45,360 bases of DNA, from contig NZ_JAJOIL010000033.1 of the NCBI RefSeq assembly GCF_021209385.1, positions 1-45,360 on the forward strand. The letters are read 5' to 3'. A program made the translations under genes and the position numbers. The DNA is from Seleniivibrio sp. Lineage in GTDB: Bacteria > Chrysiogenota > Deferribacteres > Deferribacterales > Geovibrionaceae. Each line of letters begins with the position of its first letter. The stretch's first letter is position 1. Below, piece by piece: positions 25,502 to 44,038 of this stretch. The notes beneath the pieces are model-generated. The model saw only the letters and a list, made by a program, of their open reading frames with translations, searched no databases and had not been told where the DNA came from.

Positions 25502-28376
25502 GCAGCTCGATGAATTCGTCGTATGAAAGGGGTCTGCTGAAAAAATAGCCTTGTATTTCGTCACATCCGCGTTCCCGGCAGAAATCGAGCTGTGCCTGAG
25601 TTTCCACACCTTCTGCGATAACCTGTAGGTTGAGACCTTTTGCCAGATTGATTATCGCCGTTGAGATGGCTATGTCGTCCGGGTCGTCGGGGATGTCTTT
25701 TATGAACTGTCTGTCTACCTTGAGAATATTTATTGGGAACAGTTTCAGGTAGCTGAGGGATGAATATCCCGTTCCGAAATCGTCGATAGATATCTTTATT
25801 CCCTGCTGAACCAGATGCGCGAGGGCGATTATCGTTGTCTGGATATCCTCCATCATTGTGTTCTCGGTTATCTCAAGCCCCAGAAGATCCGGTTTTATCC
25901 CTGTGGACTTAACAATTGAACATACTGTGTCTATAAGGTTTTCGTCTCGGAACTGTCTTGCGGACAGGTTCACTGCAACATCTATGTCGGTAAATCCCAT
26001 TTTTTGCCATTTTACGGCGTCTTCGCAGGCCTTTATCAGTACGGTTCTGCCTATTGAGATTATGTGTCCGGTCTCTTCCGCAACAGGTATAAACTCCGAG
26101 GGAGGAATAAGCTCACCGTCTCTGTTCCAGCGGATAAGAGCTTCCGCACCGGTTATATCTCCCGTCAGAAGGCTCACCTTCGGCTGATATACCACGCCGA
26201 AATCGCCTGCTGCCACAGCCTTGCGCAGTTCTTTTTCCATGTTAACGCGGGAAAGTACCTTTTCGTTCATATTTTTAGTGAAAAGCTGATAGCCGTTCTT
26301 TCCCGTCTCTTTTACACGGTACATTGCAAGATCCGCGTTCTTCACCATGGTAAGAACATCTTCACCATCGTCGGGATAGATGGTTATGCCCAGACTGGCG
26401 TTTATAAAGAATTCGTTTCCGGTGATGTTGATCGGTTTTGCGAACTCCGACAGTATGCGTCTTGAGGTGTCAACTGCGTTGGATTCCGACAGGATGTCCT
26501 GAAGGATGAGCATAAACTCGTCGCCGCCCAGACGAGCAACCGTATCTTCCGTTCGGACACAGCTCTTAAGTATCTCTGCAACTTTTTGCAGGAGAATATC
26601 ACCGACATAGTGTCCAAGTGTATCGTTAACGTTTTTGAAGTTATCGAGGTCGATAAAGATGACCGCGATCTTTTGGTTGTGCCGTTTTGCGTATGCTATC
26701 GCCATTTCAAGGCGGTCGTTGAAAAGCTGCCTGTTCGGAAGTCCGGTCAGTGTGTCGTGGTTTGCCTGATATTTCAGCTTCTCTTCGCCCTGCTTAACTT
26801 CCGATATGTCGTGGAACACTGCAACAAAGTGGGTTATGTTGTTCAGTTCGTCGCGTATGGCGTTGATGGAGAGCCATTCCGGATATGCGTCGCCGTTTTT
26901 GCGCCTGTTCCATATCTCCCCCGACCAGTTGCCTTTTTTTATAAGGCTGTCCCACATGCGGTGGTAGAACTGTTCGTCATGCTTTTCGGATTTCAGTATG
27001 CGCGGCGTTTTGCCGATAACCTCGTCCGGTGTGTAGCCTGTTATCTCAGTGAAGGCCGGGTTCACCTGCATTATAGTGCCGAAGCAGTCGGTTATGGTGA
27101 TGCCCTCAATGGTATTTTCTATAACGTTTGCGGCAAGAACAAGCTGACGCTCTTTTTCGATCCGCTCGTCAATCTCTTCCATCAGCTGCCGGTTCGCCTT
27201 GTTCAGCTCATCCGTGCGCTTTTTTACCAGCGTTTCAAGATGGTTTCTGTATTTCTCAAGCTCGCTTTCCGTTTTTTTTCTATCCGTTATGTCCAGAGCA
27301 TATTCTATCATCTGAACAACCTGCCCCTTTTCGTTGAAAACGGGTTGTCCGTGTATCTCGTAATATGTCTTTGAACCGTCGTCCTGCGTATGAATCTGCT
27401 CGCGTACGCAGGGTTGACGGGTAGTTTTAACAGTTTCAAGAGGACATTCGAGCGAATCCAGAAAGCAGGCTTTGCCCTTCCCGTGTAACAGTTCATAGCA
27501 TTTAACGTTTGTTGCGCCGCCAGCCGCACTGTTTGAAATGACGACATCCATTGTTTCCGTGTCCACAACAAAGAAGGGATTTGATATTGATTCCAGTATA
27601 TGATGAAGGAATTTGAGCTGTTTCACCATAGCGTCGTGGGAAAGTTTCTTATCGGTGACGTCGGTTATTGAGCACATAAATCCTTTTATGCTGTGTTTGC
27701 TGCCCCTGACATAGTCCCATGCCAGCTCGACATAAACGACCTCTCCGTTCTTTTTCAGATGTTTATGTGTGAAACGGGTCGGCAGAGCCTCGTTAATTGC
27801 CGCCCTTCTGAAATTGTCTACAACGTAGCTCCCGCTGTGTTCGTCCATGAGTATTGACAGGCTTTTGCCTTTAAGCTCTTCGGAGCTGTAACCGTATATT
27901 TCGTGTATGGCTTTGTTTGCAGAGATTATCCGGCACTCCGTGTCCATCTCTATCATGCCGCCGGGCATAGTTGAAAGAATGGTCTCAAGACGTGTTGAAA
28001 TTTCGGAACTGCCGGACGTGTCCGACATATAGCCGCTTACGCAGGTTTCGCCATTATTATTTCTTATACTGAAAAATGCGCGGACGTTAATAGTCTTTCC
28101 TGAACCGCATATCGTTCTGAAACCGGATTCAAAGCTGGAATCCTGCCCTCTCTGCACACTGTCTTCAATAGCAGAAAGTACCTTGAAACGGTCTTCGCGG
28201 AATACGATATCCGTGAATGCCAGTCCCTTTTCAACATCAGCACCGTCGTATCCTATGACCTTTGAAGAATTATGAGATATCCAGACAAAGGGGTATCCTG
28301 GTTCAGGTTTCAGCCTGAAAAAAACTATACTCCCATTGTTTAAGAGGTCTCCGATGCATATGTCCGTATTTATCAT
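25476..28376 (-). CDS. Multi-PAS diguanylate cyclase/phosphodiesterase (GGDEF-EAL)
   Basis: 966-aa cytoplasmic c-di-GMP enzyme with four PAS domains at about residues 16-120, 126-240, 257-365 and 414-525, with a coiled coil near 370-410, then GGDEF (545-700) and EAL (715-960). The cyclase site RLGGDEF (residues 617-621) is intact. So are the phosphodiesterase motifs: EALIRW at 745, EITENTMMED near 835, DDFGTGYSSLSYLK near 865 and the DRQFIKDI and EGVETQAQ blocks. Hence it could make or break c-di-GMP, with PAS input deciding. PAS3 carries CYELLHGKGKACF with further cysteines. No membrane segments. AGGTAAATACC precedes the ATG. It lies 50 bp after the REC-HPt gene, last in the chemosensory operon. 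Confidence 0.92.
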   Translation of the reverse strand: MINTDICIGDLLNNGSIVFFRLKPEPGYPFVWISHNSSKVIGYDGADVEKGLAFTDIVFREDRFKVLSAIEDSVQRGQDSSFESGFRTICGSGKTINVRAFFSIRNNNGETCVSGYMSDTSGSSEISTRLETILSTMPGGMIEMDTECRIISANKAIHEIYGYSSEELKGKSLSILMDEHSGSYVVDNFRRAAINEALPTRFTHKHLKKNGEVVYVELAWDYVRGSKHSIKGFMCSITDVTDKKLSHDAMVKQLKFLHHILESISNPFFVVDTETMDVVISNSAAGGATNVKCYELLHGKGKACFLDSLECPLETVKTTRQPCVREQIHTQDDGSKTYYEIHGQPVFNEKGQVVQMIEYALDITDRKKTESELEKYRNHLETLVKKRTDELNKANRQLMEEIDERIEKERQLVLAANVIENTIEGITITDCFGTIMQVNPAFTEITGYTPDEVIGKTPRILKSEKHDEQFYHRMWDSLIKKGNWSGEIWNRRKNGDAYPEWLSINAIRDELNNITHFVAVFHDISEVKQGEEKLKYQANHDTLTGLPNRQLFNDRLEMAIAYAKRHNQKIAVIFIDLDNFKNVNDTLGHYVGDILLQKVAEILKSCVRTEDTVARLGGDEFMLILQDILSESNAVDTSRRILSEFAKPINITGNEFFINASLGITIYPDDGEDVLTMVKNADLAMYRVKETGKNGYQLFTKNMNEKVLSRVNMEKELRKAVAAGDFGVVYQPKVSLLTGDITGAEALIRWNRDGELIPPSEFIPVAEETGHIISIGRTVLIKACEDAVKWQKMGFTDIDVAVNLSARQFRDENLIDTVCSIVKSTGIKPDLLGLEITENTMMEDIQTTIIALAHLVQQGIKISIDDFGTGYSSLSYLKLFPINILKVDRQFIKDIPDDPDDIAISTAIINLAKGLNLQVIAEGVETQAQLDFCRERGCDEIQGYFFSRPLSYDEFIELLKSGKKLL

Positions 28377-28426
28377 GGTATTTACCTAATATAATTTAAC
28401 AGAAAGGTAAGGCGGGTGCAAGTCTG

Positions 28427-29110
28427 TCAGCGTGTGAATAATGCCCGAAATTTATTGTAACAGCAGTGAATTCTGATAAGGGACAGTTTAACATTGTCTC
28501 TATCTGATTTATCAGCATTCTGCATTTCGGCACAAAGCTCCTGAAGTCCGGTTACCATCATGCCAGCCGCTGCACCCTTCATCTTGTGGGCGGTGTGAGT
28601 GGTCATTTCTTTATCGTTGGCGTAAACGGCATTTCTGAGGTTAAGATACTCTTCATCCATGACAGATATGAATTCGTCCATAAGCATCAGCATGGTTTCG
28701 TTATCCAGTCCGATTTTTTCTGATACGTCATCAAAGTCATAAAGCATCTCTTTTTTACATTCGGACAATGCGTTCAGAAAATTCAGTATATTTTCACTCA
28801 TAAAAGGTTTAAAGAGGGCAAAATCGAAAAGCGGATCGTCAGAATATTCATCGTCGGCAGAGATACACACCAGAACGGGAAGTTTGCGGTTATTCTCCTT
28901 TGCATTTTTCCTGATCTTCTCTGCACATTCAGGACCCTGCATCAGGGGCATGTTTATGTCCAGAAAAATCGCGTCGAAATCTTCCGCCAGTGCTATGTCA
29001 AGCGCCTGTTGTCCGTCTTCCGCAGGAATACATTCAACGCCCATCTTCTGCATAAGCTTTGAAAGGAGTGTTCTGTTGAGTTTGTCGTCGTCGGCTATCA
29101 GCAGTTTCAT
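28427..29110 (-). CDS. Response regulator receiver-HPt protein
   Basis: 227 aa. The receiver domain (1-115) has acidic pocket DDD (residues 7-9), phospho-acceptor D51 in FLDINMP, and the lysine in LFKPF near 101. A histidine phosphotransfer domain follows at 125-225, with H175 in THTAHKMKGAAAG. A receiver linked to HPt without a DNA-binding domain suggests a phosphorelay or phosphate sink tied to the CheA in this operon. Eight bases separate it from the gene upstream. Confidence 0.9.
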   Translation of the reverse strand: MKLLIADDDKLNRTLLSKLMQKMGVECIPAEDGQQALDIALAEDFDAIFLDINMPLMQGPECAEKIRKNAKENNRKLPVLVCISADDEYSDDPLFDFALFKPFMSENILNFLNALSECKKEMLYDFDDVSEKIGLDNETMLMLMDEFISVMDEEYLNLRNAVYANDKEMTTHTAHKMKGAAAGMMVTGLQELCAEMQNADKSDRDNVKLSLIRIHCCYNKFRALFTR

Positions 29111-29118
29111 AGTTATGC

Positions 29119-30591
29119 CTAAAAGAACTCTATGCTGGACTGCTCGTCTTCTGATGCGAGTATGTCTTTCAGTTCAGATTCGTTTCTGCCTCTGGTGAAG
29201 TCTTCGTCGGAAAGTATTTCATTGGTGAGCCTATTGTTGAATTTTTCAAACTCTTCCTGAACGTTGTCAATGAATTCGCTGAACAGATCAATGAGTTTTT
29301 CAGTGTTGGTGTCAAAGAAACTCATATATTTATCGCCTGTGAAGATATTGCGGAAATTAGTGAGCTGGTTTTCAAGGTCGTATGTGTTCTTGAGCATGTA
29401 GTCTCTTTCCGTGGACGTGTTGGAACTGCAAATATATTTCAGATGTGTTCCCGCCTCTTTAAAGGTTGAACTGAAATCCGTCTGCAGATCCTGCCATAGA
29501 GTAATATTTGCGTGTAGTTTTGCTATAAGCCTCTGAAGTTCCTGTTCAGTGCTCAACATGGATGAGACCACGCTTTTCAGGTCTTCGTCGTTTATTCTGG
29601 CAACTTCTATAGCTGTCACAACCACAAGGTTTTTGAATGTTTTGGATTGTTTTCCAAGTCCGTTTACACGCATCGACGCCTGATTTATAACCGTCTGGGA
29701 ACGGGTTGTTTTCAGCTGAAGGTCGTTTATTGTGCTGCATATTGTGCTTGAAACCTCATGCACACGCATAAGTTCTTCGCGCAGGATATTGGTTTTGCCG
29801 ACGATATTCTGCAGGTCGGTGTTGAAGGAGTACAGGAAGTCCTTCATGATCTCTTTTATGTTGTAGAGCTTGCTTTGCAGTTCACTTTTCACAAAATCCA
29901 GTTTTGCCAGCGCCTTTTCGTATATGCCGAATACAGTTCCGGCTTCGTAAGCCCCGCTGAAACTGTTTTTGCCCATGGCGTCTTTGATTATTTCAAGTTC
30001 CTGCGAAAAGATGTCGTGAAACTGGGAGTTTTCAATAAGCTCCGATACATCCGACGTGATGACTATAGTGTCTGTGTCGTCCAGTTTAAGAAATTCCGCA
30101 CTGCTGTTTATATCGCTGTTGATTATGTTCTCTGCTATATACCTGAACTGTTCGTAAACGGCGGCAAATTCTTTGGTTATTTCATCCAGAAGGGTTTTAA
30201 CGGTTGTTGAGTATTTTTTTATCTCTTTGCTGATGTGGGTAATGGTTGAACCTTTATCGCCCAGCGCCATTGTCCTGCAAATGGTATTGTATGACAGAAG
30301 CTCAAGCTCTTCCGTTATGGAGAGAAAAGTATCTGTGGCATCGTTCAGCTCTCCACGCATCTTCTCCATGTTCAGATTTTCTATTTTCTTGTTGATGTTG
30401 TCCGAAATGTGGCGGACTATCTCATCCGTGTTGCCGACAAAGCTGTTCGAGTCGCTCTGAATCTTCTCTCCAACGCTCAGCATTGCGCCGAAACTTTCAC
30501 TGCGGTGTTCGATTATTTCGTTTATTATCCCTACGATCTGTAAAAAACACCCGTCGATTTCTTTTTTAAGTCTGTCGTATGCGCTATTCAT
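29119..30591 (-). CDS. Receptor-like helical protein with degenerate MCP tips and CheZ-like motif
   Basis: 490 aa, almost wholly helical, no membrane segment, no Pfam-level name I can give. Residues about 96-127 (LELLSYNTICRTMALGDKG...) resemble the chemoreceptor tip pattern in spacing but lack the [10 protein letters not shown] core. A second stretch near 320-350 (VVVTAIEVARINDED) looks the same way. Residues 189-199, SQFHDIFSQEL, match the D-x3-Q phosphatase signature of CheZ (FQDLTGQ), with D193 and Q197. The operon has no CheZ, CheC or CheX, so a CheY-P phosphatase or a receptor-like scaffold is a fair hypothesis. It overlaps the REC gene by 8 bp. Confidence 0.6.
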   Translation of the reverse strand: MNSAYDRLKKEIDGCFLQIVGIINEIIEHRSESFGAMLSVGEKIQSDSNSFVGNTDEIVRHISDNINKKIENLNMEKMRGELNDATDTFLSITEELELLSYNTICRTMALGDKGSTITHISKEIKKYSTTVKTLLDEITKEFAAVYEQFRYIAENIINSDINSSAEFLKLDDTDTIVITSDVSELIENSQFHDIFSQELEIIKDAMGKNSFSGAYEAGTVFGIYEKALAKLDFVKSELQSKLYNIKEIMKDFLYSFNTDLQNIVGKTNILREELMRVHEVSSTICSTINDLQLKTTRSQTVINQASMRVNGLGKQSKTFKNLVVVTAIEVARINDEDLKSVVSSMLSTEQELQRLIAKLHANITLWQDLQTDFSSTFKEAGTHLKYICSSNTSTERDYMLKNTYDLENQLTNFRNIFTGDKYMSFFDTNTEKLIDLFSEFIDNVQEEFEKFNNRLTNEILSDEDFTRGRNESELKDILASEDEQSSIEFF

Positions 30592-30951: not shown

Positions 30952-33894
30952 CTATAATAATTTGTTAACATTCAAAACCAGAACAGCCTGTCCGTCGCCA
31001 AGTATGGTAACACCGCCTATGTAATTGAGATGAGCGAAGTATTCCGGCACGGGTTTGATGGCAATGTCCATTCTGTTCAGCAGTTCATCCACAATTATAC
31101 CCGTTTTTCCCTCATCTGTAACCGTTATAACGATATTAACCTCATCGGCGAGTTCTTTTTCCTCGTCGCCGAGCAGTTTTGAAAGCTGTATCAGAGGCAG
31201 TACGTTGCCTCTGTAGTATATCCCGTTGCCGAAATGGAGGTCCTTGACCTGTTCTTTGGCAACCTTTATGGTTTCCGCCACGTTCTCAATGGGGAAAGCG
31301 TAGTGTTCATCAGGTTTCATGCGCACAAGAAGCGATGTTGACATGCCTATTGTTACGGGTATTTTCATTACCATTCTTGAACCGTCGCCCAGAGACGACT
31401 GAACGTCTATTGTGCCGCCTACGCTGGTTATGGAGCTTTTAACGACATCCATGCCTACGCCGCGTCCGGAGATGTCCGTCACCTGTTCCGCGGTTGAGAA
31501 GCCGGGCGCAAGGATGAACTGTATTATCTCGTTGTCGGAAAGCACTGCATCATCGGGAGCGAGTCCTTTCTGTATGGCCTTTGCCAGAATCTTTTTAGGA
31601 TCCATTCCGCGTCCGTCGTCGATAACCTCGATATAGACGAAACTGCCCTCGTTGTATGCCTTCAGAATGAGCTGCCCCTCTTCCGGTTTGGAAGCTTTCG
31701 ATCTTTCTTCAGGTGATTCGATACCGTGGTCACAGGAGTTTCGCACAAGGTGAACCAGCGGGTCGGAGAGGATATCCGCTATCTTTTTGTCAATCTCTGT
31801 GTCTTCGCCTATTATGCGCAGGTCTATCTGTTTGTTCTGCTTGCGTGCGATGTCTCTGACAACGCGTGGGAATTTGTTGAATATCTGCTTAATGGGCACC
31901 ATGCGCAGAGACATTATGTCGCGCTGGAGATCCTGAGAAATGCGGGATATCAGGTTTGAATTGTCCTTGAAGTCTTTTATCAGACTTGTGGGGAGATCAA
32001 ACTCGCGTATGAGCCTCTGCATCATATATTCGTATGCGTTCTTCGCCACCACAAGTTCGCCTATGGTGTTTGTGAATTTGTCTATTTTCTCCTGATCCAC
32101 CTTCATGGACTGGGAATATTTCTCTTTGGAGGTATCGCCCTTCTCCTCCTGTTCTTCTTTTGTGAGGGCGGAGGCGAGGGATATGCTGCTGCTGTCGGAT
32201 TCGGGAACGCTCGTGGTGGCTTTCATGATAACCTGTTTTTTAAGGGCTATCTCAAGGTCTTTGGGCTCAAGTTTGCCTTGATTCACAAGTATCTCGCCTA
32301 TCTTCTTCTGCTGAGCCTTAGCTTCCTCGATTTCTTTTGCAGTGACCTTGCCGGACTCAATCAGCAGTTCGCCGAGTTTCTTTGCCGGAGATTTCAGGTC
32401 TTTGATATAATGCTCTATCTGTGTCAGCTCGGATGAGAAGTCTGCTCCCGCTCCTGCTTTATCTGCGAATTTATGTGCTATTTCCATCAGGTCGGTAAAA
32501 CCTATGAACTTGGCGGCATTGGAAAATCCCATGGCGGCACGTTTAAGCATGCCGGCATTGTTTCCATCCGCTTTTGCCAGTGAAATTATCTCGAAGAACT
32601 GATCCACCTGTGCAAGGAATATCTTTACGTCGCCTGTTACGGCAGGAACTTTCTCTTCCAGTGTCAGCATAGACTCCTGGAGGTTTTGCAACTGCCTGTA
32701 AGTTTTCGGCAGCTCGGGTGTTGTGTTGTTCAGAAGCGATTTCACCAGCGCTTTAACGTCTGATATGACGTTGAGAATGAATTCAGCCGCTTTTCTGTCG
32801 AAAACAATTGAGCCTGAACGCACTTTGTCCAGCATGTTTTCGACAAGGTGGGCGTATTTCTCAAGGAAGGTGAAACCGACGTATCCGCAGTCACCCTTTA
32901 TGTTGTGAAAAACACGGAAGATGTTGTCCACCGCATCTTTTTTGCCTTCGCCTGTTTTTTCTATGTCTATCAGGAAATTCTCTATTGACTCAAAATAGTC
33001 TTCGATACCGCTGGCAAGCTCCGCCAGCATTTCGTACTGGATGCCGGACGTGTTCACAGTATCGACGTCAGGCTCCGCTTCGGAGAATTCTTCAGCCTGT
33101 ACCTGTGCTTCGGGTTCTTCCTGAACAGGCGCCGCCTGTTCTTTAAGAGATATCTCTGTGATGGTTATGAGGTCAGGGTCGAATGCCAGATCGGCTATCT
33201 CTTCTGTTGCCGCGTCGCTTATTATGTATATTTCGGGACGCAGGCAAAGCTTATAAGGTTCCAGAGCCGACAGTTCGGATATCTTTGAGGTGTCTGTGAC
33301 TGCCAGGTAGTATTCGGATATCTCCTTAAGGTTGGCAAGGAGTGTCTGCGGGTCGTAGCCGTTTTCAAGCATGTCGTCGGTGAAGTTCACCTGAATTTTG
33401 TATGCTTTACCGAATCCAGGGTCGTTCAGACGCAGATGTTCAGTGATATCTGCCGCCGCGCTCGGAAGGTTTTTTACAACGGTTTCGGTTTTCTGCACTT
33501 CTTCATGTTCTTCGCCGTTTGTGGCCTCATACATGGCTATTATGTCAGAAAGATTGCGGTCGTATGGTCTTTTATCGCGTGCGTACTGTATCATTTCAAA
33601 GAGGATGTCCACTCCTTTCAGAAGCAGGTCTGTTATATCCCCGTCAATTTTGATCTCACCGTTTCTCAGCTTGTCCAGCAGTGATTCAAGGTGGTGTGCG
33701 AACTCCGACATATTATCGAACCCGAACCCTCCTGCACTGCCCTTTATGGTGTGGATATTGCGGAAAACCGCGTTGAACAGTTCCGCATCTCCCTCCGATT
33801 CGGCTTTAAGGATGCTTTCGTTGGCGTTTTCAAGGAGGTCTGCTGCCTCCTCAAGAAACTCCATCCTGAATTTTTCCATGTCGATCTGAGTCAT
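30952..33894 (-). CDS. cheA: Chemotaxis histidine kinase CheA, multi-HPt form
   Basis: 980 aa, far longer than classical CheA (about 650). Order: HPt1 (about 1-110, H48 in RNIHTIKGSAGG); a P2-like region (about 160-250); HPt2 (about 285-390, H330 in FHNIKGDCGYVG); a third HPt-like bundle (about 430-485) in which the histidine is replaced; two short GEILV/GELLI repeats (about 506-555) like those of MshEN domains; dimerisation P3 (about 600-665); ATPase P4 with VHLVRNSCDHGIES, DDGRGM and GRGVGMDVV; and CheW-like P5 to the end. I start at the ATG at 33894 (GGAG 7 nt upstream), not the TTG at 33924. It phosphorylates CheY and CheB in response to the receptors. Confidence 0.94.
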   Translation of the reverse strand: MTQIDMEKFRMEFLEEAADLLENANESILKAESEGDAELFNAVFRNIHTIKGSAGGFGFDNMSEFAHHLESLLDKLRNGEIKIDGDITDLLLKGVDILFEMIQYARDKRPYDRNLSDIIAMYEATNGEEHEEVQKTETVVKNLPSAAADITEHLRLNDPGFGKAYKIQVNFTDDMLENGYDPQTLLANLKEISEYYLAVTDTSKISELSALEPYKLCLRPEIYIISDAATEEIADLAFDPDLITITEISLKEQAAPVQEEPEAQVQAEEFSEAEPDVDTVNTSGIQYEMLAELASGIEDYFESIENFLIDIEKTGEGKKDAVDNIFRVFHNIKGDCGYVGFTFLEKYAHLVENMLDKVRSGSIVFDRKAAEFILNVISDVKALVKSLLNNTTPELPKTYRQLQNLQESMLTLEEKVPAVTGDVKIFLAQVDQFFEIISLAKADGNNAGMLKRAAMGFSNAAKFIGFTDLMEIAHKFADKAGAGADFSSELTQIEHYIKDLKSPAKKLGELLIESGKVTAKEIEEAKAQQKKIGEILVNQGKLEPKDLEIALKKQVIMKATTSVPESDSSSISLASALTKEEQEEKGDTSKEKYSQSMKVDQEKIDKFTNTIGELVVAKNAYEYMMQRLIREFDLPTSLIKDFKDNSNLISRISQDLQRDIMSLRMVPIKQIFNKFPRVVRDIARKQNKQIDLRIIGEDTEIDKKIADILSDPLVHLVRNSCDHGIESPEERSKASKPEEGQLILKAYNEGSFVYIEVIDDGRGMDPKKILAKAIQKGLAPDDAVLSDNEIIQFILAPGFSTAEQVTDISGRGVGMDVVKSSITSVGGTIDVQSSLGDGSRMVMKIPVTIGMSTSLLVRMKPDEHYAFPIENVAETIKVAKEQVKDLHFGNGIYYRGNVLPLIQLSKLLGDEEKELADEVNIVITVTDEGKTGIIVDELLNRMDIAIKPVPEYFAHLNYIGGVTILGDGQAVLVLNVNKLL

Positions 33895-33910
33895 ATTTCC
33901 ACTCCGGTAA

Positions 33911-34276
33911 TCAAATGATGCCAAGAAGCATCTTTATATTCAGTATCAGGTCGTCGGGTTTAACGGGTTTTGTTATGTACAGGTTTGCACCTGATTCATA
34001 ACCTTTCTTACGGTTTTCCAATTCTTCCTGCGTAGTTATTATGATTATCGGGGTCTCTTTGCCCGTTTTTCTGTATTCTTTTATGAATGTGATACCGTCC
34101 ATTCGGGGCATGTTCAGGTCACACAGCATCAGGGCATAGTTGGTCTGCATGGCTTTTTCAAGAGCGTCCATGCCGTCGATAGCTCCGTCTGCCTCAAATC
34201 CTGAAGACTTAAGGATATTGCTGTGGAAATGCCTGACCATATCCGAGTCGTCTATAACCAATACCTTAATAGCCAT
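33911..34276 (-). CDS. cheY: CheY-type response regulator
   Basis: 121 aa. Acidic pocket DD at residues 9-10, phospho-acceptor D53 in MLCDLNMPRMDG, threonines in IIITTQ and lysine in YITKPVKPDD. A classic CheY, able to act as the output to the flagellar motor or another target. It lies 2 bp from cheR and 16 bp from cheA. It is intact, unlike the frameshifted cheY at 36197-36560, so the operon keeps one good CheY. Confidence 0.93.
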   Translation of the reverse strand: MAIKVLVIDDSDMVRHFHSNILKSSGFEADGAIDGMDALEKAMQTNYALMLCDLNMPRMDGITFIKEYRKTGKETPIIIITTQEELENRKKGYESGANLYITKPVKPDDLILNIKMLLGII

Positions 34277-34278
34277 AA

Positions 34279-35106
34279 TTACCCCTTGTAGTATACAACG
34301 CCTGAGCCCATGCGTTTCATACTGAATGCGGTGGTTATCCTGCCCACCGATTCGCTGTGTCCCAGAAAAATGTAACCGCCTCTGTTCATGGATATGTAAT
34401 AGTGGTCCACCACCTGCTTTCTGGACAGTTCGTCAAAATATATCAGCACATTTCTGCAAAAGATGAAATCAAATCCGCGCTTTTTCCTCATGGCGTCCCT
34501 GTCCATCAGATTGAGATGTTCAAAGGTGACCATGTTCCGCACCTCTCTCACAGGGGTATGAAAACCGCCGGAGGAGGTGAAGTATTTTCTGAAGTATTCG
34601 TCCGGAACGTCTTTCAGACTCCGGTCGTCGTATTTTGCTTCGTCTGCTTTTGCCAGAACGTTTTCGTCTATATCGCTGGCGGTTATGCGCACATCCCAGT
34701 TTGCAAGGTTGTCCATCATCTCTCTTATGATGATGGCGAGGGTATATGGTTCTTCGCCTGTGGAGCATCCCGCGGACCATATGCGCAGATTTCTGTCGTT
34801 TGCGGCTTCTTTCCTTTCGATGATCTCCTGAAGACAATGCTCTGCAAATGTCTCAAGGGTGGAGAACTCGCGAAAGAAATAGGTTTCATTAACCGTAAGC
34901 AGGTTCATGAGAGCCTGAAACTCATCGCCGGTGTCCTTGAATTTGAGATAACGCAGGTATTCCCTTACGCCCTCTATACCCATCTCAAGCAGCCTTTTTT
35001 CGACCCTTTTGTTGATGAAGTACCGTTTCTTTTCTTCAAATTTAATACCCGACTTTTTATAAATAAACGCAGTCAGGTCAGTGTAGTCATCGTTGTTGAT
35101 GAACAT
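34279..35106 (-). CDS. cheR: Chemotaxis protein methyltransferase CheR
   Basis: Adds methyl groups from S-adenosylmethionine to receptor glutamates. 275 aa, usual length. N-terminal helical domain (about 1-80) with TVNETYFFRE, then the SAM fold with WSAGCSTGEEPYTLA near residue 110, TASDIDENVLAKA near 142 and DFIFCRNVLIYFD near 215. The C-terminal pentapeptide-binding extension is absent, as in most CheR. Its presence with CheB implies adaptation by methylation of the soluble receptor of this operon. The 18-bp gap to the HEAT gene upstream holds CAAGCTGAT-type sequence and no terminator. Confidence 0.95.
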   Translation of the reverse strand: MFINNDDYTDLTAFIYKKSGIKFEEKKRYFINKRVEKRLLEMGIEGVREYLRYLKFKDTGDEFQALMNLLTVNETYFFREFSTLETFAEHCLQEIIERKEAANDRNLRIWSAGCSTGEEPYTLAIIIREMMDNLANWDVRITASDIDENVLAKADEAKYDDRSLKDVPDEYFRKYFTSSGGFHTPVREVRNMVTFEHLNLMDRDAMRKKRGFDFIFCRNVLIYFDELSRKQVVDHYYISMNRGGYIFLGHSESVGRITTAFSMKRMGSGVVYYKG

Positions 35107-35124: not shown

Positions 35125-36180
35125 CTATAAGGTTTCCAAAAGGCTTTGAAGCATCCTTCGGAACTCGCCGTTTGCTCCTGCGAGTTTCATTTCGGTTATC
35201 CTGATAGCTTTGTCCCTGCTTGTCACAGCCAGATGTTCGAGAGCGGTCATGCATATGTTCTCGTTTGAATCTGACGCCAGTTCCTCGTAAAGAGCGGCCT
35301 TGTCCGGGATATCAAGGTGCGACACAATATAAAGAAAAGTAAGTCTCTCCTCCGGATACCCGTTAAGGTTGCGGAGGTTAGTCAGCATAAATTTTGTATG
35401 TTCCTCGTCCAGCTTATGTATGTCGTGTCTGGAAACGATTTTGAGTACGGCATTTGCTATCTCTTTGAAATACATCGTATTTTTGTTGTTCAAAAAAGAC
35501 AGCAGGAAATCCAGATGGCGTGTTGCTCCTTTTTCTCCGACGAGTCTTAGTACCGTGGGTTTGAAAATACTGTCCATCATTCTTCCGCCCACAACGGCAA
35601 GAACCCTGTCAACAGTGGCGGGTTTGCCCATTATCGTGAGTGTTTCGAGACAGGACATGCGAACCATTGGCTCCTGTGTCTGCTCAAAAATATTCATAAT
35701 GTCTTCCAGAGAGTCCTCGTCGTATATCTTTCCGAGGTATTCCACAGCGGTCATCATAACGTTTGGCGCCTTGTCGTTCAGCGCCGCCCGCAATGCTGGA
35801 ATTGAGTATTTGGAGCTGGTCGCCACAAGACTGTCCAGCACCAGCTTGCGAACTTCGCGGTTCTGGTGATCCATTATGGAGGTGAGAAACGCCACCGCGT
35901 CCTCGCCCTTTGAACCGAATATTTCGATGGCACAGTTTCTTATGTATGCATCGGCAGACTCAAAATATTTCGCGATATCTGAAAAGAAAGGAGAGATGTC
36001 GAGAACTTTGAAAGCTTCGACAATCAGTTCGCGGACAAGACGGCTGTTTTCCGAATACATATGGCAGATGAGTACCGGATAGAGGTCTTCGTTCTTTTCG
36101 GAAAGAACGTCCTCGACGGTATAAATCCTTTCCGCCTCGTCGGGATTTTTCAGCTTTTCAATGAGCGTCTGTCTGTCCAC
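35125..36180 (-). CDS. HEAT-repeat protein in the chemosensory operon
   Basis: 351 aa of alpha-helical repeats, about 35-40 residues each, spanning nearly the whole protein (for example AYIRNCAIEIFGSKGEDAVAF, NREVRKLVLDSLV, PNVMMTAVEYLGK, PMVRMSCLETL). No enzyme motif and no signal peptide. HEAT repeats are protein-binding scaffolds; embedded between the cheY and cheR genes, it probably holds components of the array together or modulates CheR or CheY. The exact role is unknown. Confidence 0.85.
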   Translation of the reverse strand: MDRQTLIEKLKNPDEAERIYTVEDVLSEKNEDLYPVLICHMYSENSRLVRELIVEAFKVLDISPFFSDIAKYFESADAYIRNCAIEIFGSKGEDAVAFLTSIMDHQNREVRKLVLDSLVATSSKYSIPALRAALNDKAPNVMMTAVEYLGKIYDEDSLEDIMNIFEQTQEPMVRMSCLETLTIMGKPATVDRVLAVVGGRMMDSIFKPTVLRLVGEKGATRHLDFLLSFLNNKNTMYFKEIANAVLKIVSRHDIHKLDEEHTKFMLTNLRNLNGYPEERLTFLYIVSHLDIPDKAALYEELASDSNENICMTALEHLAVTSRDKAIRITEMKLAGANGEFRRMLQSLLETL

Positions 36181-36196: not shown

Positions 36197-36560
36197 TCAG
36201 CCGATTATCTTTTTTATTACAGCAAGAAGGTCGTTCGGTTTGAAAGGCTTTACTATCCACGCTTTCGCGCCCGCCTGTCTGCCCTCTTCCTTGATGCCAG
36301 CCTGAGATTCTGTCGTCAGCATTATTACAGGCGTAAATCTATGGGTAGGGTTTTTCTTCATCTCTTTAAGAAAGGTGATGCCGTCCATGTTTGGCATGTT
36401 GACATCGGAAACGACAAGATTGAAGCGCCCCGTTTCAAGTTTTTTTAAGCGCGTCCACCCCGTCCCTCGCGTCCACAACTTCGTAGCCGGCAGACTTCAG
36501 AGTTGCCGCAACAAGCTGACGCATGGTTATGGCATCGTCAACAATAAGGATACGTTTCAT
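36197..36560 (-). pseudogene. CheY-type response regulator, frameshifted in an A7 run
   Basis: Translation starts at the ATG at 36560 with an excellent GGAGG site and reads MKRILIVDDAITMRQLV... to DGVDALKK, then meets a TGA just after an A7 run (T7 at 36440-36446 on the plus strand). The other frame continues with LETGRFNLVVSDVNMPNMDG, TTESQAG and WIVKPFKPNDL to 36197. Removing one A gives a perfect CheY of about 120 aa with phospho-acceptor D52. A +1 shift is needed, so the -1 heptamer A AAA AAC does not help. Mutation, base-calling error, or transcript slippage are all possible. Confidence 0.8.
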
Positions 36561-36856
36561 TAATTTCCTCCGATCGCATCTTGTATCTGCAATCCGTACA
36601 AACAGATTAATTTATCAAATGATTCACATGATTTGAGAGTTATTTTTGAGCCTGCGTCCTTCGCAGTCTTAAACAGTGAAAGAGCTATCTGCAAAAACAC
36701 TGTGTCCATGGATGAAACCTTTGTCATATCGGCTTCAAGCTCTTTCCCGCCGAAAGATGTTTCGCCGAAAAGCGACAGGAATTCTTCCGCCATGAAGATT
36801 TCGGATTCGTCGGGGAAAGTGACTTTGATTTTGGTTTTAAGCTCTTTAACTTCCAT
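36560..36856 (-). CDS. STAS-domain protein
   Basis: 98 aa. The fold suggested is STAS (SpoIIAA/sulfate-transporter antagonist): a beta-strand KIKVTFPDESEIF, a mixed central part with ADMTKVSSMDTVFLQIALSL containing the conserved D-x-S-type segment near residue 45, and the closing strand ITLKSCES. It starts at the ATG at 36856 (AAGG 8 nt upstream); a longer start would add 14 residues from the cheB tail. Stop and cheY start overlap by one base (TAATG). STAS partners usually act in switch or scaffold complexes; one in a che operon is a plausible CheW- or kinase-associated adaptor. Confidence 0.75.
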   Translation of the reverse strand: MEVKELKTKIKVTFPDESEIFMAEEFLSLFGETSFGGKELEADMTKVSSMDTVFLQIALSLFKTAKDAGSKITLKSCESFDKLICLYGLQIQDAIGGN

Positions 36857-36857
36857 A

Positions 36858-37931
36858 TCACCAACCTTTTTCCACTTTTCTGCATATCTCCGCGGCAATC
36901 TTATAGCTGGGGAGTACTATGTCCGTGCAGCCTTTAAGCACCGCCTCTTTCGGCATGCCGTAAACAACGGCTGTTTCTTCGGATTCTGCTATGGTGTACC
37001 CGCCGGCCTGTTTAATTTTACACATTGACGCGGCGCCGTCATTGCCCATACCTGTCATGAGGACGCCCAATGTCTTATCGCCGAAAACACCGGAAACAGA
37101 TTCCATCATTATGTCAACACTGGGGATGAACGCATGTTCAGGGGTTTTCCCCAGCCTGATGGTTATTTCGCCGTTCATCTTTTTGTAAAGCGTCATGTGG
37201 TTTCCCGCTTTGCCAACATAGCATACCCCGGGGGTCACTATGTCTCCGGGTGTAACTTCTTTGACGGTTACGCGGCAGGAATCGTTAAGCCTTCTCGCAT
37301 AAGCCTCCGTAAAGCCCACAGGCATATGCTGAACCATGAATATCGCCGCGTTCAGGTTCTGCGGGATATGGGGCAGAACGTCGAAAATAGTCTTGGGTCC
37401 GCCTGTGGATATGCCTATGCAGACCGCTTTGAAGTCTCCGCCCGCCGCCCGCTCTGCCGGATATTCGGGTTCTTCCGCTTCGTGTTTTTCAAATCTGGGG
37501 ACGGATATTTTTCTTGTGAGTTTCGACAGACCTAGACCTGCCGCCGCCTTAACTTTTGCGGAAAGCTCCCTTTTGACCATATCAATGTCGCGGGAAACGG
37601 TTCCGCTGGGTTTCGCAACAAAGTCGAAAGCGCCAAGTTCCAGCGCCTGAAAGGTTGTCGTCGCGCCCTCCTGCGTCAGCGAGCTGAGCATTATTACAGG
37701 GCATATATTATTATCGGTGATGATCTTAAGGGCTGTCAGCCCGTCCATCACCGGCATGTTCACGTCAAGGGTTATGACATCCGGCTTAAGCGCCATTGCC
37801 TTTGCAACCCCGTCCTCTCCGTTTCTTGCCGTGTCAACGACCTCTATACCGAACGAATCATCCAGCATCTCTTTAATTTTCTTCCGCATTAATGCGGAAT
37901 CGTCGACAACCAGAACTCTTACTTTTTTCAT
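36858..37931 (-). CDS. cheB: Protein-glutamate methylesterase CheB
   Basis: Removes receptor methyl groups and deamidates glutamines; its receiver is activated by CheA. 357 aa. The receiver (1-120) has D56 in ITLDVNMPVMDG and K108 in FVAKPSG. The esterase (about 165-357) has the triad S175 (GISTGGP), H202 (VQHMP) and D298 (TGMGNDGA), all present. It overlaps the triple-CheW gene by ATGA and leads into the STAS gene after one base. Confidence 0.96.
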   Translation of the reverse strand: MKKVRVLVVDDSALMRKKIKEMLDDSFGIEVVDTARNGEDGVAKAMALKPDVITLDVNMPVMDGLTALKIITDNNICPVIMLSSLTQEGATTTFQALELGAFDFVAKPSGTVSRDIDMVKRELSAKVKAAAGLGLSKLTRKISVPRFEKHEAEEPEYPAERAAGGDFKAVCIGISTGGPKTIFDVLPHIPQNLNAAIFMVQHMPVGFTEAYARRLNDSCRVTVKEVTPGDIVTPGVCYVGKAGNHMTLYKKMNGEITIRLGKTPEHAFIPSVDIMMESVSGVFGDKTLGVLMTGMGNDGAASMCKIKQAGGYTIAESEETAVVYGMPKEAVLKGCTDIVLPSYKIAAEICRKVEKGW

Positions 37932-39477: not shown

Positions 39478-41718
39478 TCAGAATGTCTGCATTTCGTCTG
39501 CGAGGGATGCAACCTCTTCTGCTGCTGCCGCTATTTCACGCAGACCTTTTACCTGCTCGTCTGCGGCATTTTTCGCCTCTTCGGAGAGAGCCTTAAGGTT
39601 TTCTGCCGCCTCTCTGCCCTCTTCACATGCTCCGTTGACCTGTTCGACTCTGGATTCAGCCGCGTCAACGTGTCCTGAACATGTTTTATAAAGCTCGATG
39701 AGGTGCTTGCGGATCATTCCCACTTCCGTAAGGTTGTCCACTGCGTACTGGGATTTTGTTATCTGCACGCGGATGAGAGAGGTGATCTCCGCCAGTTCAT
39801 TTTGAAAGTTGATGACCTGCTCATACATTTCGTCGAGGATGTCTTTCATTTTGTCCGCGTTGTCTGCGGATTCGTTTGCAAGTGCGCGGATGTCTGCGGC
39901 AACAACAGAAAAACCTCTTCCGTATTCGCCTGAGCGTGCCGCTTCAATATTGCCGTTTACTGCAAGCATATTGGTCTGGATAGCGACGTTGTTGATGGTG
40001 TCCACGATCTTTTTGATATTGCCGAACGATTTATTCAGTACGGTCACTTCATCGTGAACGTCTTTCAGGTTGTTGATGGAAGCAACGAAACCTTTGATGA
40101 TGAGTTCTATGCCGTGTTTAAAGTCTTTGAACTGAGTTTTGAATTCACCGACAGCAGGTCTCACCTTTTCGTCAAAAATGCGTCTTGCTTCCTGAATTTT
40201 GCCGTCTTTCATGAGGTTTACTATTTCGCCTGCACCAAGGTGGACATGGTTGTGAGGTTCGCGGATACACTCGTATGCCTTTTCTTCTTTTCCGTTGTCG
40301 GGTTTATATGAGAGATACCATGAACCGAACGCGCACTTTGTGGGGTCGAGCTGTCCGTGGAATTCGTGATTGTTGTTCATCGCGTCTTCAAGCTGATCTA
40401 TGAACACGAGGTGATCCAGAGCTTTTATCTCGTCCAGTGCATTATCAACCAGCTTTCCGTGATCAGCCATGACGTGCCAGCTGTTTTTAACGTTGTTTAT
40501 GTGAGTGCTTATTTTGTCGAATTCTTTGGTGATACCGGTTATTTCTGTGAATATCTCGGTTGTTCCGGTATCCATCTGGTCGATGGCTTTGAGAACCTCG
40601 TCTGCCGATGCGTCAAGCTCTTCGATTGTGGAAGAAAGCTCTTCCGCTGCCGCCGCAACCTCTTCGGAGGATTTAGCTATGTCGGTCGACTGTTTGAGGT
40701 CGTCCGCCATTTCAGCGAGTTCCTGAGATGCAACGGTCAGTTCGCTGAACGCTTTTGTCTGTTCTTCGGTGAACTTTCCCACCTCTTCCGCCGCTGCCGC
40801 GTTCTGTTCCGCAGAGGATGCCAGCCTGTTCACAAGATCCATAGCGCGTGTGGATTCCTGACTGATTGCCACTGCACCGCTTTTGATCTTTCCGACTTCA
40901 ATGCCTATTTCATCCGTATGACTGCCGACATAGCCGCAATGTTTGGAGATGAAATCTGCTTTATAAAGGTTTGTTCTGGAAAGAATAAGGAAGCTGTCAA
41001 CCTTGCTGACAACGTGCTGAACCTGGGTGAGCGACTGATCTATAACGTTTTTAATGTTTTTTGCTGATTTTTCGGAAACTTCCGCCAGTGTGCGGACTTC
41101 GTCCGCGACAACGGCAAATCCTTTTCCGTGTTCTCCGGCTCTTGCCGCTTCAATGGCGGCGTTGAGCGCCAGAAGGTTCGTCTGGTCGGCAATTTTTGTA
41201 ACAACCTGAACTATCTGTCCGATGGAGTCCGCTTTTTCCTTAAGCTGGTCAACAAGCTGAGTTGATTCCTCAACTTTTTCCGTTGCGTCCTTAACGGAAT
41301 CTTTCAGTTCGTTTGCGGCAGTCACAGTGGATTTAACTTTTTTAATAAGTTCTGCCGTGGAGGTTTCATATTCTATGGTTGTGGAGAGTACGTTTTTTGC
41401 GTCTGTTTCAAGAGCGGTTGTGTCGTTTTTGATGCCTTCCGCGCTTCGGCTTGCCTGTGCGGAGGCTATTGTTACCTGTTCCATGGAGGCGTTAAGCTGG
41501 TTTGCCGCGCTTGAAGCCTGTTCAATAGCGGATGCCATCTCTTCGGATGCGGTGGCGAGTCTTTCCGCGTTTGACTGCTGTTTTGCCAGAGTTCTTGCTC
41601 TTGCTTTTTCAACAGCCATTTTTTTGGATTCCTCCCGTGAAGCTGCCGCTGAATCTGCATCCTTTTTTAAAATACCCGTCCTTCCGGCTAGGCTGGTGGG
41701 TTTCGCCAGCTTTTTCAT
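39478..41718 (-). CDS. Soluble chemoreceptor with two signalling hairpins and a CZB domain
   Basis: 746 aa, no membrane segment. Residues 1-40 are a basic, low-complexity lead. Tip 1 is at about 182-211 ([20 protein letters not shown]), a long coiled coil continues to about 430, a CZB-type zinc-binding domain lies at about 435-525 with H436, the [12 protein letters not shown] stretch with C462, and EPHNHVHLG near 488; tip 2 is at about 583-615 ([20 protein letters not shown]). Both tips are canonical. Two tips in one chain resemble the Vibrio DosM receptor. CZB domains sense zinc or hypochlorous acid in known receptors. I start at the ATG at 41718 with GGAGG 8 nt upstream. Confidence 0.92.
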
Positions 41719-41739: not shown

Positions 41740-43239
41740 CTAATATATTTTTATATCACTAATCTTATCAGAATCGAAAGACGCTTTCAGCGTGAAATCG
41801 GTTTCCCTACCAGAATTAACATCTTTTGCGGTGATGGTTACGATGCCGCTGTCGTCTATGATGAAACAGATATCAATCAATTTCTCTTCTTCGCTATTTT
41901 CCACTGTAAAATCGAATTTTGCAAGGCTAATGAAGTATTCCGGATCGTCTTCCGGACTGTCGGAAACGTTAAGACTTGAGTGTGCGGTATCCTGCAGAAC
42001 ATGAACCGTTATATCGTTTATGTCGTCACTTGCCGTTGTGAACGTCTGTGTGAAAGATACGGGGTAGGGTTCGTTTTTCCGCATAATGACTTCAAACATT
42101 CCGTTGTCGTCTTCAAGCCCCATGTTGTGGCTTGTGACATCGAAAAAAGTTCTGTCGCCCAGAAGCCCCAGACGCATTGCGGCGTTTGTTGCCGCGCCGC
42201 AGACCACAGCCTCTTCGGGGTTCAGGTCTTTGCTGACTGATGCTCCGAACATTTCTTCTATGAATGCGCGCACGTTGCATATCCTGCTTGCGCCGCCCAC
42301 AGGAAGCACACGGCTTATGTCTTCAGGTTTTATGTTGTTCTCTTTAAGAAGTCCCTCGGTAATATCGCGGATGCCCTGAATGATGGGTTCGGTTATCTTA
42401 CCGAAGAGCTGTTTGTTCAGCTCCATCTTGAAATGCAGAGGACCTTTGGGGGTTATGGTTATGTATGGAATAACAAGATTTGTTTCGTTAAGGCTGGAAA
42501 GCTCCATTTTTGCTTTTTCCGCCTGAAAAAGTAACTGCTGATAGGCTATCGGGTCGGTTTTCAGGTCTATGCCGTGGAGTTTACGGAATTCTTCGTTGAG
42601 ATAGTCCGCAACTGCAACGTCAAAATCTACGCCGCCTATCTGTGTTGAGCCGCCTGTGGCTTTGACTTTCAAGCAGTCCTTGTTCAGCTCTATGAGGCTT
42701 ATGTCGAGCGTCCCGCCGCCAAGGTCGAAAACAAGGCATAGTTCGTTCTCTTTTTTGCCTATGTTGTTGTAGTATATCGCTGCGGCAGTGGGTTCGTTGA
42801 GCAGCGCAATAACCTCAAAACCCGCAGTCTGCGCCGCCGCACGGACAGCTTCCCGCTGGAGGTGGTCAAAATATGCAGGAACGGTTATGACGGCTTCCGC
42901 CGTGTCGTCACCTGTATAGTCTTTGTGCAGGTTTTTGAGCTTTTTAAAGAACAGAGCAGCCAGTTCCACCGCTGTGAAGTTTTTGCCGTATATCGAGAAT
43001 TCTTTATCGGATCCCATATATCTTTTGACGTTGGATATGGTGTTTTCCGATTCAAGCATCTGCATACTGCGGGCATTGTCGCCCGTAACAGCTTCCTTAC
43101 CGTTTTTGAAATATATCACAGACGGCAGGAATCGTTTTCCGCTGTCGGATGAAATGACCTCGATGGTTCCCTTCTCCTTAAATATTGCTATCATGGAGTT
43201 TGTAGTGCCGAAATCTATTCCGACGGGATATCTGCTCAT
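41740..43239 (-). CDS. Hsp70/DnaK-family ATPase, short form
   Basis: 499 aa versus about 640 for DnaK. The actin-like ATPase half (about 1-365) has all phosphate and adenosine motifs: VGIDFGTTNSMIA, FDLGGGTLDIS near residue 172, and LPVGGASRICNVRAF near 322. The beta-sandwich substrate-binding part (about 370-495) is recognisable (GIVTITAKDVNSGRETD), but the helical lid and the acidic C-terminal tail are missing. No dnaJ or grpE lies nearby. Located between parA-like and the receptor gene and overlapping parA by ATGA, it is presumably dedicated to array assembly or receptor folding. Confidence 0.9.
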   Translation of the reverse strand: MSRYPVGIDFGTTNSMIAIFKEKGTIEVISSDSGKRFLPSVIYFKNGKEAVTGDNARSMQMLESENTISNVKRYMGSDKEFSIYGKNFTAVELAALFFKKLKNLHKDYTGDDTAEAVITVPAYFDHLQREAVRAAAQTAGFEVIALLNEPTAAAIYYNNIGKKENELCLVFDLGGGTLDISLIELNKDCLKVKATGGSTQIGGVDFDVAVADYLNEEFRKLHGIDLKTDPIAYQQLLFQAEKAKMELSSLNETNLVIPYITITPKGPLHFKMELNKQLFGKITEPIIQGIRDITEGLLKENNIKPEDISRVLPVGGASRICNVRAFIEEMFGASVSKDLNPEEAVVCGAATNAAMRLGLLGDRTFFDVTSHNMGLEDDNGMFEVIMRKNEPYPVSFTQTFTTASDDINDITVHVLQDTAHSSLNVSDSPEDDPEYFISLAKFDFTVENSEEEKLIDICFIIDDSGIVTITAKDVNSGRETDFTLKASFDSDKISDIKIY

Positions 43240-44024
43240 TTGGACGCTCCTTTAGCGATTGTTACTTTTTCAAGTATAAAATCGGCTAAAAGATTGAAAT
43301 CCATACACCCTCTGCTGTTAGGAGCGAATAAATTTATAGGAATTCTGTATTCCGGTGCCTCGGCTATCCTGATATCGTTGCGGATTCGGGGTGATATCAT
43401 CTGTTCACCGAAGTTTTCGTTTATCTCTTTCATAACGCGTTTGGAGTGGTTGCTGCGGATGTCGTACTGGTTGGGGATGATGCCGCACATGCGCAGATCA
43501 GGATTAAACGCAGCGTTGATGCGGTAGATGGTCTGGGTGAGCTGTGCCAGCCCCTCTATGGCGAGGAAATTGAGCAATATCGGGATGAAAACCGATTCCG
43601 CAGCCGACAGTGCGTTCAGCGTGAGTGCCGCTACAGTGGGCGGTGTGTCTATAAGTATGCAGTCGTAATCGTTTCTGAAATCAAGTAAAACTTTCTTGAG
43701 CTGACCTTCGGGATTTTGACCGTCAAGAAGCTGTTTGATGAATGATGATGAGAAAGATGTGGATGCAGGCAGAACGTCGTAAAGCCCGTGTTCCGTGCGG
43801 AACAGAGTGTCTTTTCCGCTGCATTTGCCAAGCAGTGCGTCATAAATGCTGAGGTATGTGTCATATGTGTTGACGCCCGACCAGAAAGATAAGTGTGCCT
43901 GCGGGTCGAGGTCTACGGTCAGCACCCGATACCCGCGGCTTCCAAGTACCCCCGCCGTGTTGACCACTGTGGAGGTTTTCCCGCTGCCGCCTTTTTTGTT
44001 TGCAAATGTGATTACTGCTGACAT
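43236..44024 (-). CDS. ParA/Soj-type partition ATPase of the chemosensory operon
   Basis: 262 aa. The deviant Walker A KKGGSGKTSTVVNTAG is at residues 10-25, VDLDPQAHLS near 38 is motif II, and YDCILIDTPPTVAALTLNAL near 120 the Walker B. No helix-turn-helix N-terminus and no parB beside it, so it is not plasmid partition; ParA-like PpfA in Rhodobacter and ParC in Vibrio position chemoreceptor arrays, and this is the likely role here. I start at the ATG at 44024; the in-frame TTG at 44033 lies inside the -10 box. First gene of the operon that ends with the GGDEF-EAL protein. Confidence 0.9.
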   Translation of the reverse strand: MSAVITFANKKGGSGKTSTVVNTAGVLGSRGYRVLTVDLDPQAHLSFWSGVNTYDTYLSIYDALLGKCSGKDTLFRTEHGLYDVLPASTSFSSSFIKQLLDGQNPEGQLKKVLLDFRNDYDCILIDTPPTVAALTLNALSAAESVFIPILLNFLAIEGLAQLTQTIYRINAAFNPDLRMCGIIPNQYDIRSNHSKRVMKEINENFGEQMISPRIRNDIRIAEAPEYRIPINLFAPNSRGCMDFNLLADFILEKVTIAKGASK

Positions 44025-44032
44025 AGTAGACA

Positions 44033-44038
44033 ATTATA
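44033..44038 (-). promoter_or_regulatory. Consensus -10 box for the chemosensory operon
   Basis: TATAAT on the minus strand, ending 8 bp before the ATG at 44024, so the message would begin almost at the start codon. I see no recognisable -35 at 16-18 bp and no ribosome binding site. The 72-bp gap also has to serve the divergent gmhB-like gene. Confidence 0.5.

Follow-up and report, generated by a model that had tools for sequence, protein, structure and literature searches.

A DosM-like double-tip chemoreceptor of Seleniivibrio with a CZB domain inserted in the descending arm of its second hairpin

Can a receptor that is regarded as the scaffold of a two-layered chemoreceptor array possess a sensor of its own? 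This question is raised by a gene of Seleniivibrio sp. located in the window, that is, the whole stretch of DNA that was analysed (45,360 nucleotides; assembly GCF_021209385.1, contig NZ_JAJOIL010000033.1). Its product combines two chemoreceptor tips with a CZB domain and is termed CZB-DosM herein. Tandem signalling domains in the receptor and a triple CheW adaptor are features that, among chemotaxis systems, have been ascribed to the F9 class alone, with a CheW3 gene beside that of DosM as its signature (PMC9321776). In Vibrio cholerae, the tandem receptor is DosM (VC1403) and the triple CheW protein is VC1402; DosM is rod-shaped, bears a signalling domain at either end, and joins two CheA/CheW layers (PMC7534058). 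According to the survey of the F9 class, 98% of the DosM homologues are devoid of sensory domains, those of the other 2% going unnamed in its text, and DosM is viewed as a scaffold that depends on further receptors for its input (PMC9321776). When the F9 CheA of V. cholerae is deleted, no detectable phenotype is reported under standard conditions (PMC7534058).

The reading frame of CZB-DosM starts with an ATG at position 41718, a few bases 3' of a ggagg sequence, and ends with a stop codon at 39478–39480. In the protein of 746 residues, Pfam finds two stretches of MCPsignal (206 bits in all) and, at residues 436–500, a CZB domain (PF13682; E 5.4e-11, 43.1 bits against a cut-off of 29.4). The tip patterns, 18 residues each, start at residue 179 for tip 1 and at residue 581 for tip 2. 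The maximal 19-residue Kyte–Doolittle mean over the chain is 0.82 and no transmembrane segment is found; judged by its sequence, the protein is soluble. Two chemoreceptor tips and a CZB domain in one soluble protein were what the sequence-only reading of this DNA had proposed, and this part of it is borne out. The layout is not that of TlpD-like receptors, in which a single MCP domain is followed by a C-terminal CZB. Among the 38 MCPsignal and five CZB matches of the host genome, the CZB-DosM frame is the only one with a CZB and two MCP matches. Stretches that we take to follow the methylation consensus are located at residues 55–71, 300–309, and 355–371, so that both hairpins have them; with respect to the CZB domain, they lie towards the mid-rod. 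The N-terminal tail (residues 1–55; within 39481–41718, minus strand) is basic, with a net charge of +7 to +9 in 11 family members and of +11 in the CZB-less, that is plain, DosM of locus L047; it is perhaps DNA- or ParA-binding. All features of the gene and its surroundings are collected in Table 1.

Table 1. Coordinates of the CZB-DosM gene, its predicted domains and zinc ligands, and the neighbouring genes in the window
Feature	Position	Strand	Basis
ParA-like ATPase	43236..44033	-	Pfam
Short Hsp70-like ATPase, 499 aa	41740..43239	-	Pfam; profile matched to position 501 of 599
CZB-DosM, double-tip soluble chemoreceptor, 746 aa	39478..41718	-	ORF, Pfam, tip rulers, relatives
Hairpin 1, residues 51–340, tip 1 within 41029–41256	40699..41568	-	Tip pattern at 179, mid-rod motif at 341; bounds approximate
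Mid-rod motif, residues 341–352, 162 residues past tip 1	40663..40698	-	Ruler; AF2 helix break 344–346
Hairpin 2, residues 341–746, interrupted by CZB	39481..40698	-	Rulers, AF2 model, structure match
Inserted CZB domain, residues 431–535	40114..40428	-	Pfam; VIA-align to 3t9o_B
Predicted Zn ligand H436	40411..40413	-	Ligand alignment
Predicted Zn ligand C462	40333..40335	-	Ligand alignment
Predicted Zn ligand H489	40252..40254	-	Ligand alignment
Predicted Zn ligand H493	40240..40242	-	Ligand alignment
Tip 2 hairpin, residues 547–648	39775..40080	-	6s1k_E match
CheW3, three CheW domains in one protein, 503 aa	37928..39439	-	Pfam, 3 stretches, E 1.3e-102
CheB	36858..37931	-	Pfam
STAS-like protein	36560..36898	-	Pfam, below cut-off
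CheY-like gene, frame broken in this assembly	36197..36478	-	Comparison with relatives
HEAT-repeat protein	35125..36180	-	Pfam
CheR	34279..35106	-	Pfam
Second CheY-like response regulator, intact	33911..34276	-	
CheA, 990 aa, two Hpt stretches	30952..33924	-	Pfam, NCBIfam

From upstream to downstream, genes for ParA-like, short Hsp70-like, CZB-DosM, CheW3, CheB, STAS-like, CheY-like, HEAT-repeat, CheR, CheY, and CheA proteins follow each other on the same strand. The features by which F9 systems are described are found here: two tandem MCP signalling domains in one chain that is devoid of a transmembrane segment, a CheW3 gene in the cluster, and cheA, cheB, cheR, and cheY in one cluster, with one of the two CheY frames broken. 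Matches to the CheW3 gene also adjoin most of the DosM relatives (80 loci). CZB-DosM is thus a member of the DosM-like family in an F9-type che cluster, a label given by architecture and gene content, and the comparison with DosM that had been drawn from the letters holds, with the CheW3 gene directly adjacent.

Several neighbours deserve mention in their own right. The first CheY-like gene is broken near a run of A when compared with the intact copies of close relatives; an error of the assembly may be behind this, or else a true loss or switch. The CheA, one of four CheA-type kinases in the genome, contains at residues 516–564 a motif resembling the c-di-GMP–binding motif of the MshE type; it reaches 37.8 bits in two stretches with the NCBIfam model NF053729, whose cut-off is 38. 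Hence, the F9 kinase may also read c-di-GMP. Downstream of CheA and of a 490-residue protein, a receiver-Hpt protein and a PAS-GGDEF-EAL protein are encoded (25476–29110, minus strand), and an output branch to c-di-GMP is possible. The gene of the 490-residue protein itself (29119–30591, minus strand) adjoins CheA, shows no Pfam match above the cut-off, and has a match in the Deferribacterota loci L066–L070. At the upstream end, the trio of ParA-like, Hsp70-like, and DosM genes recurs at L081 and L144, and Hsp70 is found without ParA at L072, L086, and L128. The ParA-like and Hsp70-like proteins (41740–44033, minus strand) may position or remodel the array.

The position of the CZB domain within the rod was determined by rulers, that is, distances between fixed points of full-length frames. 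A total of 102 loci, the window, and four rows from earlier loci gave 89 frames with the tip 2 pattern. Eight of these were dropped as truncated, leaving 81 frames (70 plain and 11 with CZB), of which 78 are different: three plain sequences had each been reached twice as identical copies. Of the 27 loci lacking a row, 12 gave 14 extra frames and 15 gave no measurement. Tip 1 and tip 2 are exactly 300 residues apart in 69 of the 70 plain full-length relatives, as opposed to 402 or 403 residues in all 11 CZB versions; in the 14 extra frames, which lie outside the first pattern, the distance is 300 (11 frames) or 301 (three frames). This distance is divided by a mid-rod motif, LK.ST[DN]..KS[SA]E, for which a relaxed pattern was used in the search. 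The motif lies 162 residues past tip 1 in each of the 78 frames having it. The remaining way to tip 2 measures 138 residues in all but one of the 67 plain rows, as opposed to 240 or 241 residues in the 11 CZB rows. From tip 2 to the C terminus, 166 residues are counted in all 11 CZB rows and 165–169 in all 70 plain rows. Since every other ruler is unchanged, the CZB domain is a clean insert of 102–103 residues between the mid-rod motif and tip 2. The sole plain outlier, at L110 near a contig end, has its tips 272 residues apart, 28 residues (four heptads) below 300. In four other plain DosMs (L127, L128, L142, and L144), tip 2 is devoid of its usual Arg (EAATAGE versus EAARAGE), which may mean that docking by tip 2 is being lost in these proteins.

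The insert departs the descending arm about 90 residues after the start of the mid-rod motif, near residue 329 of the E. coli receptor by 6s1k numbering. By Tsr numbering, we take this residue to lie between the methylation helices and the glycine hinge. Hairpin 2 thus hosts the CZB domain in its descending arm, with about 60 residues between the insert and the apex of tip 2. The sequence-only reading had placed the domain in the middle of the molecule, between the two tips, and this placement has to be corrected. A CZB between two complete hairpins is rejected because of the rulers and a 303-residue structural match within hairpin 2.

The match in question was obtained with a model of hairpin 2 alone (AlphaFold2, residues 341–746; pLDDT 80.1, pTM 0.39). 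VIA-align superimposes 303 of its 406 residues on chain 222–524 of the Thermotoga maritima receptor 2ch7_B (Z 16.0, rmsd 4.5); the match spans model positions 2–406 and leaves 103 residues unaligned. The model of the full chain, calculated from a 39-row alignment (mean pLDDT 86.4, pTM 0.60), consists of long helices with a break at 344–346 and short helices at 434–530. The four-helix fold of CZB domains is found in the model, where residues 431–535 align to the CZB of DgcZ, 3t9o_B (Z 10.4, rmsd 2.6, 102 aligned of 120), and the full-length model matches the same structure over residues 427–535 (Z 10.3). At the sequence level, phmmer gave no match in the PDB for a stretch of 110 residues around the CZB, whereas the fold comparison gave one. 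The otherwise top structural matches of the full-length model are unrelated helical bundles with no bearing on kinship. The E. coli receptor tip 6s1k_E is matched by residues 547–648 with all of its 102 residues aligned (rmsd 1.1), and tip 2 is predicted to be a true hairpin. The case by which the sequence-only reading would have been refuted, a predicted second tip that is no hairpin, did not occur. DSSP assigns no helix break at either tip in the two AlphaFold2 models, although the 6s1k match indicates a hairpin.

The predicted zinc site consists of three His and one Cys residue with a spacing of 26/27/4, H489 and H493 forming an HxxxH motif. In TlpD, the ligands are H315, C340, H368, and H372 (PMC12871147), with a spacing of 25/28/4 by these residue numbers. 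All four predicted ligands are invariant in the 8-row alignment and kept in 18 of 18 sequences from 13 genomes, five of which were reached twice. From the letters, a pattern of H, C, and HxH had been described. The His and Cys ligands stand, but the HxH part does not: the real motif is HxxxH, and H491, which creates the HxH appearance, is not kept in the Desulfobacterota members. In the 39-row alignment, Pfam finds CZB in eight rows, which equals its number of CZB-DosM rows. At loci L071 and L072, the Cys motif contains a Tyr, and the CZB is present by alignment, Pfam count, and ligand check. Hence, CZB-DosM possesses a genuine CZB domain, and we infer that it binds zinc. Among the 11 family orthologues, mean identity is 0.72 in the CZB and in the N terminus, 0.67–0.69 in the long arms, and 0.93 and 0.90 in the tips. 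Directly after the Cys, at position 2 of its motif, CZB-DosM sequences have Ala, Ser, Pro, or Gln, whereas soluble CZB chemoreceptors are reported to be enriched in Arg at this place (PMC8262984); zinc affinity and oxidant response may therefore differ from those of TlpD.

How widespread is this architecture? The closest relatives are found in Seleniivibrio woodruffii and in Deferribacteraceae MAGs. Full-length orthologues with 62–100% identity occur in 11 of the 12 Geovibrionaceae (Deferribacterota) genomes searched, the own genome included, and no full-length orthologue was found in the twelfth (G009). Further searches were performed with an 8-row profile of the second half of CZB-DosM in draws of genomes, which are samples. 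In the own phylum, 12 of 50 genomes match: 11 full-length CZB-type proteins, all in the own family, and one plain protein. In the phylum of L072, 18 of 395 genomes match at E <= 1e-30, one being CZB-type (24 of 395 match at 1e-25), and a draw around L071, most of whose matching genomes are common with the former, gave 15 of 297, again one being CZB-type. No CZB-type protein was seen among the matches of the phyla of L093 (7 of 398 genomes) and L087 (43 of 398). Plain matches begin at profile position 163 or further on and thus leave out most of the CZB part, so a very diverged insert could be missed. In the family of L072, CZB-DosM is present in two of three genomes. Among the sampled genomes, CZB-DosM is hence found only in one Deferribacterota family (11 of 12) and one Desulfobacterota family (two of three), and plain, CZB-less full-length relatives are spread over several phyla. 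This agrees with the earlier suspicion that a CZB in a DosM is unusual. A scan of viral_contigs gave no relative of CZB-DosM. The seven architecture groups distinguished in the text of a CZB census do not include a CZB flanked by two MCP domains (PMC8262984), and no description of a CZB-carrying DosM was found in the titles, parts of abstracts, and passages covered.

In a tree of the 78 different sequences (644 columns, most CZB columns removed), calculated by a quick method without bootstrap, all 11 CZB rows lie on one side of a branch with an SH-aLRT of 100, corresponding to one change, be it a gain or a loss. Herein, the CZB-DosMs of Deferribacterota and Desulfobacterota are sister groups; L047 and L158 have long branches, and nine CZB rows have an odd composition. 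CZB-DosM had also been considered as the local ancestor of the plain DosMs of the same order (G025, L047), a relation rejected since the tree sets L047 among the plain rows.

Taken together, CZB-DosM probably serves in an F9-type cytoplasmic array as a DosM-type receptor that carries an inserted CZB zinc sensor; our confidence in this is moderate. Its dimer would be a rod whose two ends each bear a tip docked in a separate CheA/CheW3 baseplate, an opposite orientation that is taken over from DosM of V. cholerae. The unchanged rulers suggest the same rod, with the CZB mounted on its side. What speaks against this reading is that a straight helix of 300 residues measures about 45 nm, whereas the baseplates of V. 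cholerae are spaced at 35 nm (PMC3964821). The ascending arm would pass the CZB, and the two CZBs of the dimer would straddle the coiled coil, as they do without touching in crystals of TlpD (PMC12871147). Gain or loss of zinc would follow from the level of free zinc, and hence the redox state, or from oxidation of C462; that CZBs read the redox state via the soluble zinc pool is argued in a recent preprint (PMC13370339). Depending on zinc occupancy, the CZB would be ordered or loosened, and with it the flexible part of hairpin 2 that lies just above tip 2, by which CheA activity would shift, mainly in the layer held by tip 2. In TlpD, alterations of the zinc site are described to extend as far as the kinase interface, and CheA is believed to stay on while zinc is bound (PMC12871147). 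The receptor would thereby give the array scaffold its own intracellular zinc/redox input. We infer sensing, bridging of two layers, and asymmetry between the layers. The zinc site lies about 60 residues (about 9 nm along the helix) above tip 2 and about 235 residues along the chain from tip 1. As a tentative extension, to which we give limited credence, zinc loss would therefore soften or release the tip 2 baseplate only, with tip 1 still holding its own, and CZB-DosM might act as an asymmetric two-layer device in which the zinc/redox state opens, closes, or silences one array face while bypassing the methylation region, meaning that the sensor would control architecture and not the kinase alone.

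The same zinc site could instead be a structural staple that braces the rod or the contacts of adjacent dimers within the array, without any sensing, so that CZB-DosM would remain a scaffold like other DosMs. Invariant ligands would be expected of a staple too, and a scaffold role in the absence of sensory domains is what has been described for most DosM homologues (PMC9321776). However, the CZBs studied so far are reported to be regulatory with a metastable zinc site (PMC12871147), and the insertion sits beside a tip, where a change would reach the kinase; a mere staple is thus considered unlikely. A different doubt concerns the bridge itself, for both hairpins could fold back side by side and place the two tips in the same baseplate as an intramolecular pseudo-dimer. 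Structural matches of the full-length monomer model (pTM 0.60) span residues 116–674, and the two hairpins may perhaps be packed side by side in this model. Yet folding back is an artefact to be expected when a monomer is predicted without a packing partner, and the related DosM appears as an end-to-end rod in tomograms (PMC7534058), which makes this arrangement quite improbable for CZB-DosM.

A third possibility is that a second MCP gene was recently fused to an ordinary receptor of the TlpD-like MCP-CZB type and that the product has no relation to DosM. Such an event could give the order MCP-CZB-MCP, and each of the genome's four other CZB proteins has one MCP match. We give this origin hardly any credence: CZB-DosM can be aligned from end to end with double-tip proteins that are devoid of a CZB and whose spacing is identical except for the insert, tip 2 has the NG[NS]IEAAR form common to plain DosMs, and the neighbouring gene encodes CheW3.

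With the insertion of a sensor into a DosM-type receptor as the preferred reading, CZB-DosM represents a rare variant of a known double-ended receptor, in which a sensor is added to an array scaffold that normally has none. A DosM with its own sensor of known chemistry makes the question of F9 array input testable. Furthermore, it demonstrates that a sensory domain can be spliced into one hairpin arm while every other length is kept to the residue, and hence provides a natural experiment on the tolerance of the rod to insertions and on how near to a tip a sensor can act. The 300-residue ruler of the plain frames is a strict number for the geometry of two-layer arrays.

Several known systems share parts of this design. 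The basic N-terminal tail and the adjoining ParA gene recall FrzCD, whose tail is reportedly nucleoid-bound. A ParA-like gene also accompanies a soluble receptor in the cytoplasmic cluster of Rhodobacter sphaeroides, where the ParA-like protein PpfA is said to be linked to TlpT, a receptor that reportedly has one tip and no CZB. With DgcZ of E. coli (CZB-GGDEF), CZB-DosM shares the CZB fold, as opposed to the output domain, and the two CZBs of DgcZ are described to dimerise directly (PMC12871147). TlpD of Helicobacter pylori and McpA of Salmonella are soluble receptors as well, with the same CZB fold and ligand spacing, and their zinc is reported to be read out to CheA (PMC12871147, PMC13370339). 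However, they have a single tip, and their CZB is located where the ascending arm ends, whereas CZB-DosM has two tips and its CZB interrupts the descending arm. DosM (VC1403) and the F9 class are matched in the soluble chain with two signalling domains, the adjacent CheW3 gene, and cheA, cheB, cheR, and cheY in the cluster (PMC7534058, PMC9321776), and the CZB domain in the descending arm of hairpin 2 is what sets the Seleniivibrio protein apart.
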